Source of the DNA: Nitrospirota bacterium
Lineage (GTDB): Bacteria > Nitrospirota > JACRHL01
DNA: 64,000 nt
Assembly: GCA_029858285.1 (NCBI GenBank)
Contig: JAOUFN010000001.1
Span: 1 to 64,000 of the forward strand
Direction of reading: 5' to 3'
Made by a program: the position numbers and the translations under genes
Part shown: one piece after another, positions 21,336 to 63,342 of the stretch
Layout of the letters: every line of letters begins with the position of its first letter
Numbering within the stretch: position 1 is the first letter of the stretch
Notes under the pieces: model-generated
What the model was told of the DNA's origin: nothing
What the model saw: only the letters and a program-made list of their open reading frames with translations
Databases searched by the model: none

Positions 21336-21701
21336 ATGCGTGCCCGCCCTTTTGTCCTTCCCGCCACTCCGGAAACCCGCTCGCCGCGTGTCCGGGTGCG
21401 CCAACTGGGCATTCGCGCCACCATCCGGCCGTTGGCGTTTCCCATGCCGGTAAATGGCTGGATCAGCACCCTCGCCGTCGGCGGCGCCTATGTGGAGGCC
21501 CCGCGCCACCTGCCCCGCGACACGGAAATCCGCATCGACTGGATGGCGCAGGACAAGGGGCGTCTGGTCCGCCTGCGCCTCACCGGCTGGGTGGCCTATG
21601 CCGACGAGCGCGGCATGGGGATTCAGTTCGACCGCGACAGCCTGCCGGATCCCACCGAGCTGGACGGCCTGGTTTCCAGCTATCTCAGCGCCGCCGGGTA
21701 G
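21336..21701 (+). CDS. PilZ-domain protein
   Basis: A 121-aa protein formed almost entirely of a PilZ-like domain: an arginine-rich lead (RVRVRQLGIRATIR), the NGWISTLAVGGAYVEAP block in the position of (D/N)xSxxG, LRLTGWVAYADERGMGIQF near the end. It is a possible c-di-GMP effector, related in layout to the protein at 2734. GGAGG lies eight bases before ATG 21336. It stands alone between thpR (divergent) and a membrane protein. Confidence 0.75.
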   Translation: MRARPFVLPATPETRSPRVRVRQLGIRATIRPLAFPMPVNGWISTLAVGGAYVEAPRHLPRDTEIRIDWMAQDKGRLVRLRLTGWVAYADERGMGIQFDRDSLPDPTELDGLVSSYLSAAG

Positions 21702-21902
21702 CTTCGGCCGGGGATTCCAGCATTCGTTTGAGAGGCGGCGGCGGAGTGTTTTTTGGCGGGGTTCCGCCCGGTATTGGCCAGCAGGTTTTTTCCGGCGCCA
21801 GGTTCCGGTAAAAAACAATGCTTTACGCAAATGATGCAAATCGTGTACAGATAGTAGGCCCGCAGGAAGCGGGCGTGGCCCAGGTCCATGGAGGAGACGG
21901 GT

Positions 21903-57317: not shown

Positions 57318-57419
57318 CCCGCTCGCCGGCCCGCCCTCCATGGTAGGGAGCGTGCCGATGCGGTATACTCGGGAAATCCGAAAACCCGGTGTGTACCGCT
57401 TCTGGCGCGGTTTGGAGGC

Positions 57420-59300
57420 ATGGTGTCGGCAAAAACCGTTACATCCCTGATCCAGCAGGGGGCCGAATTTCAGGCCCGGGGTGATTTTGCGGCGGCCGGG
57501 GGCTGTTATCGCAAGGCATTGAAGGCCGCTCCCGATCATCCGCAGGCGCTGTGGATGCTGGGGATGCTGGAATTGGGGATGGGGCGGGTCGATTCTGGCG
57601 CCCGACATATGGAGCGTTTGTTGCGGCTGCAACCCCAATCGACGCATTCCCACTGCGGCATGGCCCAGGTGCGTGTGGCGCAGGGGCGGATGGCCGAAGC
57701 CAGGGCGGGTTATCAGCGGGCCGTGTCGCTGGATGGCGCAAACCTGCCGGCCCTGGTTGGCCTGGGGGCGCTGCTGGCGCAGGAGGGGGACCTGGAGGGC
57801 GCTGAAGCCACGCTGCGCCGGGCGGTGGCGGTGGACCCCAGGGCGCCGGAGGTGCGGATTCAGCTGGGCCGAGTGCTGTACCGAACGGGCCGCATGGATG
57901 CCGCCAGGGTCGAGTGCGAGGCGGCGGTGGCGTTGGCCCCCAACCGTCCCGAACTGGTGCGGGTGCTGGCCGAATTTTATCTGGACATGCGGTTGTGGGA
58001 GGAGGCGGCGCAGGCGGGCGGTCACTGGGCCAGGCTGGATCCGGAAAATGCCCGGCCCCACGCGCTGGTGGGAACAGCCCTCCTGAGTCTGCAAAAAGTA
58101 GCGGGCGCTGACGCCGCCTTCGACCAGGCGCTCAGTCGGGATCCGGGCGAGGTCTCGGCACGGGCCGGAAAATGCGGCGTCCTGCGCATGCGGGGGGACA
58201 TGGGGGCGGCCTGTCAGATGATTGAACCGCTGCTTGCGGACGCGGAATGCCCGCCCGGAATCGTGGTGGCCTATGCCGGAATCGCGGAGGGTGTGGGTCG
58301 ACTGGACGATGCCCTGGCCCGTATCGAGAAAATGCTCGCGGGTTATCGTTTGAGCCCGGCGGACCGGAGAAACCTGCATTTCGCCGCCGGAGAATTGCTG
58401 GACAAGAAAAAAGATTATGACCGGGCCTTCCGGCACTACCATGAGGGTAATCAGGCCTCTCAAAGCGCTTTCGACCCGGATATTTTCCGGCAGTTCGTGG
58501 ATCGCCAGATTGCGGTGTTCGGTTCGGAAAATTTGGGGGGCCTGGCCCGCGCCCGCAATCGCATCAAGCGTCCGGTACTGATCGTGGGCATGCCGCGCTC
58601 GGGTACCTCGCTGGTGGAGCAGATTCTTGCCAGTCACCCACTGGTGCACGGGGCGGGAGAACTGGAGCACCTCCCGAGGATTGCCACGGTCCATTTGCAA
58701 GCCGGCCTGTCATCCGGTCCACCCTATCCGGAGTGCGTGCGGGATTTATCCTGCGACGATCTGGACCGGCTGGCGCGGGAATACGATGCGGACCTTGCCC
58801 GGATGGGCGGGGATGCCTTGCGGGTGACCGATAAAAATCCACTGAACTTCCTGCACCTGGGGCTTGTCCAGCGGATGTTGCCCCATGTGCGGGTCATCCA
58901 TTGTCGGCGCAATCCGGTAGACACCTGTCTGTCCAATTATTTCCAGGATTTCGCCAGTCTGGGTTTGGCATATTCCACCGACCTGTCGCATTTGGGGTTT
59001 TTCTACCGTCAGTACGAGCGCTTGATGGCCCACTGGCGGGAGGTGCTGGACCTGGAGATGCTGGAGTTGGACTACGAGGAGATGGTGGCTGATCAGGAGG
59101 GTGCCAGCCGCAAGCTGGTGTCGTTTGTCGGCTTGGAATGGGACGAAGCCTGTCTGCAGTTCCACAAGACCAGGCGTACGGTATCCACCGCCAGCGCCAC
59201 CCAGGTGCGCCAGCCGATGTACAAGGGATCGGTGGAACGGTGGCGGCGCTACGAAAAACACCTGGGGCCGTTGCTGGAGGCGCTGGGCATCCGGCACTGA
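57420..59300 (+). CDS. TPR-sulfotransferase, copy 1
   Basis: A 626-aa protein: about nine TPR-type repeats in residues 1-330 and a C-terminal sulfotransferase domain with the PAPS 5'-phosphosulfate loop RPVLIVGMPRSGTSLVEQIL and the 3'-phosphate site RVIHCRRNPVDTCLSNYFQ. It should sulfate a protein or glycan chosen by the TPR part. ATG 57420 is one base from GGAGG, too close; the GTG at 57423 may be the real start. It shares 417 bp with copy 2 (one mismatch). Confidence 0.9.
   Translation: MVSAKTVTSLIQQGAEFQARGDFAAAGGCYRKALKAAPDHPQALWMLGMLELGMGRVDSGARHMERLLRLQPQSTHSHCGMAQVRVAQGRMAEARAGYQRAVSLDGANLPALVGLGALLAQEGDLEGAEATLRRAVAVDPRAPEVRIQLGRVLYRTGRMDAARVECEAAVALAPNRPELVRVLAEFYLDMRLWEEAAQAGGHWARLDPENARPHALVGTALLSLQKVAGADAAFDQALSRDPGEVSARAGKCGVLRMRGDMGAACQMIEPLLADAECPPGIVVAYAGIAEGVGRLDDALARIEKMLAGYRLSPADRRNLHFAAGELLDKKKDYDRAFRHYHEGNQASQSAFDPDIFRQFVDRQIAVFGSENLGGLARARNRIKRPVLIVGMPRSGTSLVEQILASHPLVHGAGELEHLPRIATVHLQAGLSSGPPYPECVRDLSCDDLDRLAREYDADLARMGGDALRVTDKNPLNFLHLGLVQRMLPHVRVIHCRRNPVDTCLSNYFQDFASLGLAYSTDLSHLGFFYRQYERLMAHWREVLDLEMLELDYEEMVADQEGASRKLVSFVGLEWDEACLQFHKTRRTVSTASATQVRQPMYKGSVERWRRYEKHLGPLLEALGIRH
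57443..57859. repeat. Near-identical 417-bp segment shared with 59447-59863
   Basis: Offset of 2,004 bases; only one difference was found by reading (G at 57534, A at 59538; Asp versus Asn). Both copies then diverge sharply at 57860/59864. This is the N-terminal TPR-coding part. Confidence 0.92.
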
Positions 59301-59423
59301 TCCCTCTGCCCGGATTGGGCGTTGCCAGGACGTTGGCTATACTGTCCAAATATTGTTCATCGATATTGTTCATCGAGCCGGGGCCCGCCCCCCCGTGTGT
59401 GGTTGTCGAGGAGGCCCAAACGA

Positions 59424-61301
59424 ATGGCATCGACCAAAAAACTGGAATCCCTGATCCAGCAGGGGGCCGAATTTCAGGCCCGGGGTGATTTTGCGGCGGC
59501 CGGGGGCTGTTATCGCAAGGCATTGAAGGCCGCTCCCAATCATCCGCAGGCGCTGTGGATGCTGGGGATGCTGGAATTGGGGATGGGGCGGGTCGATTCT
59601 GGCGCCCGACATATGGAGCGTTTGTTGCGGCTGCAACCCCAATCGACGCATTCCCACTGCGGCATGGCCCAGGTGCGTGTGGCGCAGGGGCGGATGGCCG
59701 AAGCCAGGGCGGGTTATCAGCGGGCCGTGTCGCTGGATGGCGCAAACCTGCCGGCCCTGGTTGGCCTGGGGGCGCTGCTGGCGCAGGAGGGGGACCTGGA
59801 GGGCGCTGAAGCCACGCTGCGCCGGGCGGTGGCGGTGGACCCCAGGGCGCCGGAGGTGCGGATCCGCCTTGGCGGTGTGTTGTCGCTCCTGAACCGGGAG
59901 GAGGAGGCCGGTGCCGAATACGAGGCCGCCGCCGATCTGGCCCCCAACCTCCCCATAACGGCGCGGGTGTTGACCCGCTTTTGCATCGACTGGCGTCTGT
60001 GGCAGCGCGCCCTGCACATGAGTGAGCGCTGGATCGGGCTGGAGCCGGAGAATGTTGACGCCCACGTGGCACATGGTGTGGCCCTCCTGAATTTGCAGCA
60101 GGTGGACCGCGCTGAATCCGCGTTCGACAAGGGGCTGAGCCTGGACCCCGGGGCACACACGGCACGGATCGGAAAGTGCGACGTCCTGCGCCTGCGAGGG
60201 GATATGCAAGCCGCCTGTCAAATGGTCGAGCCGCTGCTCTCGGACGAAAATCCGTCCGGTGCGTTGCTCGCCTACGCCGGTATTGCGGAGGGTATGGGCA
60301 GGCGGGATGATGCACTGGCCCGCATCGACGAGGCACTGAGGGGCGACCGGCTGCCCGAGGATCTGCGGCGGGACCTGCATTTCGCCGCCGGTGAGTTGCT
60401 GGACAAAAAGAAGGATTATGACCGCGCCTTCGAGCACTATCGCGAAGGCAACCGGATGTCCCCGGGGACGTTCGACCCGGAGATATTCCGGCAATTCGTG
60501 GACCGGCAAATCGAGGTGTTTGACCCCGCAGCCGTGGGCAGGTTGGCGCGCGCCAGCGGCCATCTGTTACGGCCGGTGCTGATCGTGGGCATGCCGCGTT
60601 CCGGCACCACGCTGGTGGAACAGGTGCTGTCCAGTCATCCCCAGGCGCACGGAGCCGGAGAACTGGAACACATCTCGCGCATTGCCCACCTTCGTGCGCC
60701 AGCACTTTCCCCCACACGCCGGGAGTATCCGGAATGTGTGCGGGACCTGACTCGTGATGAACTGGACCGGCTGGCGCGGGAATATGACACGGACCTTGCC
60801 CGCATGGGGGGAGAGGCCCTGCGGGTGACCGACAAACAGCCGTTGAATTGCCTCCATCTTGGGCTTATCCATCTGATGCTGCCCCACGTGCGGGTGATTC
60901 ACTGCCGACGCAACCCGGTGGATACCTGTCTTTCCAACTACTTCCAGAATTTTTCCAGTCTGGGGCTGGCGTACTCCAGAGATCTGTCCCACCTGGGTTT
61001 CTACTATCGTCAGTACGACCGGCTGATGGCCCACTGGCGGGAGACGCTGGACCTGCAGGTGCTGGAAGTGGACTACGAAGAGATGGTGGCCGATCAGGAG
61101 GGCATGAGTCGCAAGCTGGTGGCATTCGTCGGTCTGGAGTGGGACGATGCCTGCCTGCAGTTTCACAAGACAAAGCGCACGGTATCCACCGCCAGCGCCA
61201 CCCAGGTGCGCCAGCCGATGTACAAGGGATCGGTGGAACGGTGGCGGCGCTACGAAAAACACCTGGCGCCGTTGCTGGAGGCGCTGGGCATCCGGGGATG
61301 A
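59424..61301 (+). CDS. TPR-sulfotransferase, copy 2
   Basis: A 625-aa paralogue of the gene before, with the same layout. The first 145 residues are almost identical to copy 1, the central TPR region (about 146-330) differs strongly, and the sulfotransferase domain is close (RPVLIVGMPRSGTTLVEQVL, RVIHCRRNPVDTCLSNYFQ). Such a pattern points to a changed binding specificity under a conserved catalytic domain. GAGGAGG lies before ATG 59424. Confidence 0.9.
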   Translation: MASTKKLESLIQQGAEFQARGDFAAAGGCYRKALKAAPNHPQALWMLGMLELGMGRVDSGARHMERLLRLQPQSTHSHCGMAQVRVAQGRMAEARAGYQRAVSLDGANLPALVGLGALLAQEGDLEGAEATLRRAVAVDPRAPEVRIRLGGVLSLLNREEEAGAEYEAAADLAPNLPITARVLTRFCIDWRLWQRALHMSERWIGLEPENVDAHVAHGVALLNLQQVDRAESAFDKGLSLDPGAHTARIGKCDVLRLRGDMQAACQMVEPLLSDENPSGALLAYAGIAEGMGRRDDALARIDEALRGDRLPEDLRRDLHFAAGELLDKKKDYDRAFEHYREGNRMSPGTFDPEIFRQFVDRQIEVFDPAAVGRLARASGHLLRPVLIVGMPRSGTTLVEQVLSSHPQAHGAGELEHISRIAHLRAPALSPTRREYPECVRDLTRDELDRLAREYDTDLARMGGEALRVTDKQPLNCLHLGLIHLMLPHVRVIHCRRNPVDTCLSNYFQNFSSLGLAYSRDLSHLGFYYRQYDRLMAHWRETLDLQVLEVDYEEMVADQEGMSRKLVAFVGLEWDDACLQFHKTKRTVSTASATQVRQPMYKGSVERWRRYEKHLAPLLEALGIRG

Positions 61302-61461
61302 TGTCTTGTGGGTGGGGGGGGGCCGTTCCGGGACCGGTCGGATACTTTTTGGTTGCTGGCTATATATACTGGTTCCTCGCGGGCTTCGTTGCGGTCCTTG
61401 CCGCCCGGGTGCGCTTGTGTCCCGGAGTGTGTTTGTCTGTGTTGTTGAGGTGATCCGGAAA

Positions 61462-63342
61462 ATGGTCTCCAAAGGGGAAATCGCATTACTGATCCAGCAA
61501 GGGGCTGATTTTCAGGCCCGGCACGATTTTGCGGCTGCCGCGGATTGTTACCGGCGGGCGCTGGAGTCGGTGCCCGATCACCCGCAGGCCCTGTGGCTGC
61601 TGGGGATGCTGGAGTTGGGGCTGGGGAACGTCGACTCCAGCGCCCGGTGTATGGAGCGGTTGTTGCAAACCCAGTCACGCTCCGCGCAAGCCCATTACGG
61701 GATGGGCCAGGTGCGTGTGGCACAGGGGCGGCAGGCGGACGCCGAGTCGTGCTATCGCCACGCCATCGGCATCGATAGCGGGTATGTGCCGGCGTTGATC
61801 GGCCTGGGGCTGCTGCTGGAGGGGAAAGGCGACGCGGACGAGTCCGAGCATCTGCTGCGGCGCGCGGTGGCGGCGGACCCCCGTGTTGCGGAGGCTCGCA
61901 TGTACCTGGGTAAATTGCTGTACCGGAACGGCCGTGTGAATGACGCGCTGATGGAACTGAAGGCGGCCTCCTCACTGGCCCCCAACAACCCGGCGGTGGT
62001 GCGTCTGCTGGCGGATGTTCAGGTGGACCAGTTGCAGTGGGACGAGGCGCTGCTGGCGGCTGGACATCTGGTGCGGCTGGAACCCTCGGATGCCACGTCC
62101 CACGTGGTGTTGGGAATGGCGTATCTGGGGGCGCAGCGGGTGGAGGAGGCCATCGTCAGCCTGGAACGCGCCCTCGAACTGGCCCCCAACCACCCCCCGG
62201 CGCTGATTGCCCTGTGCGATGCATTGTATCTGAACGGGGAGTTTGAGCGCGGATACGAATTAATCCGGCTGTTGCTGGATAGTCCCGGAGTCTCCCCCGG
62301 GGTGCTGACCGCCTATGCCGCCATTGCCGAGGGGGTCGGTAAAACAGATGATGCCCTGTCGCGCATTGAACAGAGCCTTGCCGGGGAAAATCTGGATGCC
62401 CGTGCCCGTCAGGGGCTGTGTTTTTCCGCTGGCGAGTTACTGGACAGGCGGGGGGATTACGACCGGGCCTTCGAGATGTATCACGAGGGCAACCGCTCGA
62501 GCGCCGGAACCTTCAACCCGGAGGAATTTTCCCGTCAGGTGGACCGCCAGATCCAGGTGTTCGGTCACGCGGGACTGAAGCGACTGGCCCGTGCCCACAA
62601 CCGCATTTCCCGTCCGGTGCTGATCGTGGGCATGCCGCGCTCCGGCACTTCGCTGGTGGAGCAGATCCTGTCCAGCCATCCACGGGTGCACGGCGCGGGC
62701 GAACTGATGCACATCCAGCGCATCGCCACGTTCCGCACCCCCACCTGTTCACCGTCGGGCCAGGCGTATCCCGAGTGCCTGCGGGACATGACCCATGAGG
62801 AACTGGACCATCTCGCACGGGACTACGACATGGATCTTGCCCGCATGGGGGAAAACGCCCTGCGGGTGACCGACAAGAATCCGCTGAATTTCATGCACCT
62901 GGGGCTGGTCCACCAGATGCTGCCCCATGTGCGGGTGATCCACTGCCGACGCAACCCGGTGGATACCTGTGTGTCCAATTACTTCCAGAGTTTCGCCAGT
63001 TCCGCGCTGGCATATTCCAACGATCTGTCGCACCTGGGCTTTTACTATCGCCAGTACGAGCGGTTAATGGCCCATTGGCGGGAGGTTCTGGACCTCCGGA
63101 TGCTGGAGGTGGACTACGAAGAACTGGTGGCGGACCAGGAACGTGTCAGCCGGGCACTGGTGACGTTTGCCGGTCTGGAATGGGACGACGCCTGTTTGCA
63201 ATTCCACAAAACCCGGCGCACGGTGTCCACCGCCAGCGCCAAACAGGTGCGCAAGCCAATCTACAAGGGGTCTGTGGAACGGTGGCGGCGCTACGAAAAG
63301 CACCTGGGGCCGCTGCTGGAGGCGCTGGGTATTCAGCCGTGA
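61462..63342 (+). CDS. TPR-sulfotransferase, copy 3
   Basis: A 626-aa paralogue, less close to copies 1 and 2 at the N-terminus (MVSKGEIALLIQQGADFQARHDFAAAADCYRRALE) but with the same sulfotransferase motifs (RPVLIVGMPRSGTSLVEQIL, RVIHCRRNPVDTCVSNYFQ). GAGGTGATC precedes ATG 61462 at suitable spacing. All three are in one direction with gaps of 120-160 bases, each perhaps with its own start signals. The 328-base gap to 63670 holds only the regulatory site below. Confidence 0.9.
   Translation: MVSKGEIALLIQQGADFQARHDFAAAADCYRRALESVPDHPQALWLLGMLELGLGNVDSSARCMERLLQTQSRSAQAHYGMGQVRVAQGRQADAESCYRHAIGIDSGYVPALIGLGLLLEGKGDADESEHLLRRAVAADPRVAEARMYLGKLLYRNGRVNDALMELKAASSLAPNNPAVVRLLADVQVDQLQWDEALLAAGHLVRLEPSDATSHVVLGMAYLGAQRVEEAIVSLERALELAPNHPPALIALCDALYLNGEFERGYELIRLLLDSPGVSPGVLTAYAAIAEGVGKTDDALSRIEQSLAGENLDARARQGLCFSAGELLDRRGDYDRAFEMYHEGNRSSAGTFNPEEFSRQVDRQIQVFGHAGLKRLARAHNRISRPVLIVGMPRSGTSLVEQILSSHPRVHGAGELMHIQRIATFRTPTCSPSGQAYPECLRDMTHEELDHLARDYDMDLARMGENALRVTDKNPLNFMHLGLVHQMLPHVRVIHCRRNPVDTCVSNYFQSFASSALAYSNDLSHLGFYYRQYERLMAHWREVLDLRMLEVDYEELVADQERVSRALVTFAGLEWDDACLQFHKTRRTVSTASAKQVRKPIYKGSVERWRRYEKHLGPLLEALGIQP

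Follow-up and report, generated by a model that had tools for sequence, protein, structure and literature searches.

The window analysed here, a stretch of 64,000 nucleotides at the start of a contig of a Nitrospirota bacterium, contains three tandem TPR-sulfotransferase (TPR-ST) genes, g1, g2, and g3, whose products of 625-626 aa each carry about 10 TPRs and a PF13469 domain (Table 1). The PF13469 scores of the three copies (149.5, 160.4, and 161.3 bits) all lie above the curated cut-off of 27, and the motifs of the 5'-phosphosulfate loop and the 3'-phosphate site, PRSGT(S/T)L, GAGE, TDK.P, and RRNPVDTC.S, are intact in all three. In the g1 product, the P-loop PRSGTSL is found at 392, GAGE at 411, and RRNPVDTCLS at 496. 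At the amino acid level, g1 and g2 are 77% identical, and g3 shares 63% with g1 and 61% with g2. For g2 we used the ATG start at 59424, the longer TTG ORF from 59322 being unnecessary. The -10-like element TATACT occurs only three times in the window, both strands considered, and each occurrence lies 56-97 nt upstream of one array gene; each gene may have a separate promoter. A scan of genome contigs returned distant homologues only, and no genome of the same genus or of a close strain was present among the genomes searched.

Table 1. Features of the TPR-sulfotransferase array (positions in the window)
Feature	Position	Strand	Description
-10-like element 5' of g1	57364..57369	+	TATACT; motif search of the window
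g1, TPR-sulfotransferase copy 1	57420..59300	+	626 aa, ATG start; TPR models, PF13469 E 2e-43
5' conversion tract, g1	57443..57859	+	codons 9-146, TPR1-TPR4; 417 bp, 1 mismatch to 59447-59863; pS = 0
Diverged TPR5-TPR10 region, g1	57860..58571	+	codons 147-384; versus g2, pS 0.53-0.75, pN 0.18-0.28
PF13469 sulfotransferase domain of g1	58572..59147	+	TPST2-like, E about 4e-8
3' conversion tract, g1	59178..59294	+	codons 587-625, end of sulfotransferase domain; 117 bp, 1 mismatch
-10-like element 5' of g2	59338..59343	+	TATACT; motif search of the window
g2, TPR-sulfotransferase copy 2	59424..61301	+	625 aa, ATG start; PF13469 E 1e-46
5' conversion tract, g2	59447..59863	+	partner of 57443-57859; 417 bp, 1 mismatch
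3' conversion tract, g2	61179..61295	+	exact runs of 88 and 28 bp, 1 mismatch to 59178-59294
-10-like element 5' of g3	61365..61370	+	TATACT; motif search of the window
g3, TPR-sulfotransferase copy 3	61462..63342	+	626 aa; PF13469 E 5e-47

An AlphaFold2 model (mean pLDDT 79.7; built from only five sequences, which makes the catalytic domain less reliable) showed about 10 TPRs in a 34-residue register from residue 7, mostly at pLDDT >80, followed by the sulfotransferase from residue 385. An earlier reading of the sequence alone had noted that g1 and g2 share a nearly identical 417-bp stretch with sharp divergence past it, and that their 3' ends are almost identical as well. All three observations were confirmed. 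The 5' tract consists of exact runs of 91 and 325 bp and, in the TPR register, spans TPR1-TPR4 plus four residues. Its sole mismatch (G at 57534, A at 59538) changes Asp to Asn; since Asp is found at this codon in g3 too, the change probably arose in g2. Identity is lost abruptly on both sides of the tract, with only 14 of the first 24 nt of g1 and g2 in agreement and a drop to 58-75% beyond codon 146. The likeness of the 3' ends belongs to a separate tract, which is short and lies within a constrained region.

Silent (pS) and non-silent (pN) differences were counted on a codon alignment of the copies. Between g1 and g2, pS and pN were 0.00 and 0.00 for codons 9-146, 0.53 and 0.28 for codons 147-320, 0.75 and 0.18 for codons 320-384, 0.56 and 0.12 for codons 384-580, and 0.10 and 0.04 from codon 580 onward. 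All 87 fourfold sites in the 5' tract are identical, compared with 93 of 153 in codons 147-586 (Fisher p = 9e-15), and the last 39 codons are identical at 23/23 such sites (Fisher p = 3e-5; permutation outside the 5' tract, p = 0.009). Silent variable sites were concordant in an unbroken run of up to 30, against a mean maximum of 5.8 after shuffling (permutation p = 5e-5), and the finding of 0 changes at 111 silent sites sets a 95% upper limit of 0.027 per site. Outside the two tracts, silent divergence between g1 and g2 is near saturation. This difference between the tracts and the remainder upholds the earlier proposal of recent gene conversion.

The identity of the 5' tract does not reflect a constraint at the nucleotide level, such as an overlapping gene or RNA, because 29 silent sites inside it set g3 apart from g1 and g2. 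Since the three copies are nearly equidistant at silent sites outside the tracts, we take all of them to be old. The segments beyond the ends of g1 and g2 gave no alignment above shuffled controls, either upstream or downstream. Together with the silent divergence, these flanks rule out a recent duplication of the whole gene, and they also oppose a simple unequal crossover. We consider it highly probable, from the pattern of silent sites, that g1 and g2 are old paralogs carrying two recent conversion tracts and not the products of a recent duplication; the tracts would stem from two non-reciprocal transfers or from one patchy transfer. A mosaic allele acquired from a different strain is a less likely alternative.

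The mechanism that we propose starts from g1 and g2 as two of three TPR-sulfotransferase genes that have long stood in tandem. The sequence pattern shows homologous recombination between the two, presumably a RecA-type non-reciprocal conversion, which recently transferred TPR1-4 (417 bp) and the final ~117 bp of the catalytic domain, while the remainder stayed diverged. In each product, the TPR solenoid would most likely hold a protein for sulfation by the PAPS-dependent, TPST-like domain at the C-terminus. Conversion would then amount to a by-product, homogenising those parts that can be exchanged without loss, with no programmed switch. The tract is a case of ordinary ectopic gene conversion between tandem paralogs, a well-known process.

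The earlier reading had further held that the central TPR region differs between the two genes. TPR5, TPR6, and TPR7 are indeed only 56, 44, and 50% identical (TPR8, TPR9, and TPR10, 71, 65, and 76%), but the divergence is not restricted to the TPR region: in the sulfotransferase domain, silent sites are mostly as diverged as in the central TPRs, and conservation is at the protein level. Identical ends around a different middle would also be expected if g1 had recently been duplicated in tandem to give g2 and codons 147-586 of one copy had then been replaced by those of another family member, that is, by domain shuffling. In keeping with such a replacement, the resolved amino acid sites in codons 216-320 pair g1 with g2 (32:6:5, or 32/43) and those in codons 147-215, within g2 TPR5-6, do not (10:11:3, or 10/24); the contrast gives p = 0.017, which is post hoc and weak. 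Nevertheless, the first 8 and the last codons of the two genes differ, the intergenic regions cannot be aligned, and the g2 middle matches g3 in age, falls in the same genome-specific group, and has ordinary GC3. A donor copy is, moreover, absent from the genome. We regard duplication with replacement of the middle as quite improbable. By the pattern of resolved sites, codons 216-320 retain an older kinship of g1 and g2. The TPR5-6 portion of g2 (codons 147-215, 59862-60068) is without the kinship seen downstream; it would have evolved faster or had a separate history, possibly including further old exchange.

TPR-ST genes in related genomes bear on how such tracts arise. A relative from the same family (G003) has a tandem pair at the syntenic locus, between nfeD-band7 and ArsR-RND, and no significant conversion tract was detected in this pair (p = 0.80). 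There, a TATAAT lies ahead of the pair, whose two genes are 24 bp apart. The N halves of the window genes match the G003 pair at an identity of 0.40-0.49; the figure falls to 0.26-0.38 for the middle and climbs to 0.59-0.64 across the catalytic domain, with the end highest at 0.73-0.80. Because the same gradient is seen between genomes, the order of conservation (N half above middle, middle below catalytic end) reads as a property of the family that is explained by constraint. Further out in the phylum, genomes have multiple TPR-ST genes. In one of them (G148), genes m1 and m2 have ~480 bp of the catalytic domain in common: across about codons 475-640, pS is 0.00-0.20 and there are identical stretches of 121, 116, and 73 bp, while the TPRs of the two are diverged (pS about 0.7, pN about 0.3). 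A tandem pair at a MAG locus (L028) shares a 65-bp run around the 3'-phosphate motif (p = 0.006), and another genome (G188) provides one weaker case of a tract between TPR-ST genes. Judged from these alignments, ectopic conversion recurs among TPR-ST paralogs, often at the catalytic end. Selection is not needed to account for tracts there, since the catalytic domain is the most similar part and recombination is favoured accordingly.

The sequence-only reading had gone on to propose a cassette-like system for target choice, in which the ends are kept and the recognition part is varied. In its strongest form this would be programmed or selected switching of TPR specificity, in the style of pilins or surface antigens. 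The recurrence of arrays with homogenised catalytic ends and diverging TPRs, in G148 and at L028, speaks in its favour. The array in the window, however, gave a different answer. Beyond the three array genes, the genome holds no further copy of the 417-bp tract (there is one 27-bp chance match) and no partial TPR-ST copies or silent donor cassettes; all three genes are intact, each with a -10-like element and a start. The comparison of dN/dS by domain found pN below pS in every region, with no signal of positive selection, although saturation of silent sites, where it occurs, limits the power of such an averaged test. Ligand-groove positions showed no significant excess of the differences in TPR5-9 (19/35 vs 53/134, p = 0.13). 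Finally, the exchanged stretch is TPR1-4, itself part of the presumed recognition arm, and not the variable repeats, so that a portion of that arm has been homogenised. Cassette switching is therefore very improbable.

We attach equally little probability to an assembly artefact, a repeat collapsed or duplicated in a short-read assembly: the genome is a 57-contig draft and reads shorter than 325 bp could not span the longer exact run, but both copies are intact in-frame ORFs with different flanks on both sides and one distinguishing base, both lie inside a contig of 229,909 bp, direct-repeat misassembly normally deletes an interval and does not add a second in-frame copy, and G003 has a tandem array at the same locus.

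With regard to function, the fold of the TPR arm matched the OGT TPR domain best (1w3b, E 1.7e-12), and the best sequence matches of the catalytic domain, weak ones, were TPST1/2 (E about 4e-8), in an alignment that covers the P-loop PRSGT region and the Glu region after it. An APS kinase, needed for PAPS, is encoded in the genome. The array products are putative protein sulfotransferases in which an OGT-like TPR arm would present proteins to a TPST-like, PAPS-dependent catalytic domain, an assignment to which we give somewhat less than even weight. Members of PF13469 may also sulfate glycans. As substrates we favour exported surface proteins or their glycans, and for the proteins themselves our confidence is tentative, falling just short of the halfway mark. 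Because TPR5-8 diverge, substrate preference is probably not the same in the three enzymes. No characterised bacterial TPR-sulfotransferase was found in the part of the literature covered by our search.

The preference for surface substrates is drawn purely by analogy with the gene neighbourhoods of homologues: the window holds no secreted substrate candidate, TonB receptor, autotransporter, or surface-protein neighbour of the array, and no link was found between the array and the contig of the same genome that carries a TonB receptor. Another contig of this genome (C21; L045, L046) encodes an APS kinase, nucleotide-sugar and glycosyltransferase-like ORFs, an ABC exporter-like ORF, and a further sulfotransferase-like gene (21413-21709); this gene set probably serves to make a sulfated polysaccharide. 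In G148 and G188, TPR-STs lie directly 3' of ECF sigma - FecR - TonB receptor modules, and in G148 an APS kinase and a PepSY_TM gene adjoin one such TPR-ST. Modules of ECF sigma, FecR, TonB-dependent receptor, and TPR-sulfotransferase occur repeatedly (L076, L077, L078, and L079, in G148, G188, and G250) and are a candidate for an iron-uptake-linked surface sulfation system. On plasmids of Kluyvera, Thalassospira, and Pacificitalea (L082, L083, L085), TPR-sulfotransferases lie beside or near autotransporters; in Kluyvera a family 8 glycosyltransferase is also nearby. For one plasmid homologue, a TonB receptor gene is found at a distance of a few kilobases. At the MAG locus (L028, 716-9797), the two TPR-ST genes overlap by 4 bp and come immediately after the gene for a 1699-aa repetitive surface-type protein.

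A practical consequence of these results is that, across the tract, neither g1 nor g2 can safely be used for dating or phylogeny. They also suggest that enzymes otherwise differing by as much as 56% per repeat can exchange TPR1-4 and the catalytic C-terminus, which would put specificity in TPR5-8. Similar tracts in other lineages, and the presence of genes for TonB receptors, autotransporters, and APS kinase in the neighbourhoods, hint at a role for TPR-sulfotransferases in the modification of surface proteins. A broader proposal, which we think unlikely but worth stating, is that TPR-ST arrays are modular enzymes in which repeated ectopic conversion keeps the catalytic end (here TPR1-4 too) common and TPR5-8 diverge. 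Such an array would be a library of one head with different substrate-reading arms, possibly directing the sulfation of specific outer-membrane or autotransporter proteins. If true, this would be a kind of protein sulfation system that has been little described in bacteria.

Among known systems, OGT resembles the array proteins in layout, with a long TPR superhelix at the N-terminus leading into a catalytic domain that transfers a group. The likeness is architectural only, since the array proteins carry a PAPS-type sulfotransferase (PF13469) and not a glycosyltransferase. Among proteins of solved structure, TPST1/2 come closest to the catalytic domain, but the solved TPSTs lack a TPR arm, and the activity of the array proteins is predicted from sequence. 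RaxST is a bacterial protein-tyrosine sulfotransferase. For the conversion itself, the class-I release factors RF1 and RF2 of bacteria offer a parallel: there, conversion is confined to a shared domain (domain 3) and was judged neutral (Ishikawa et al. 2015, PMC4530459). As in the array, ectopic conversion acts between functionally distinct paralogs in a common domain, and the specificity domains stay distinct. The RF1/RF2 events, however, are old, predating the divergence of classes or genera (PMC4530459), whereas g1 and g2 stand in tandem, their event is recent enough to have left silent sites identical, and their larger tract lies in the TPR arm, not in the catalytic domain. In the concerted evolution of prokaryotic paralogs, copies within a genome are likewise kept alike by conversion (Wang and Chen 2018, PMC6053082); between g1 and g2, by comparison, conversion is partial, involving two tracts and not the whole gene.
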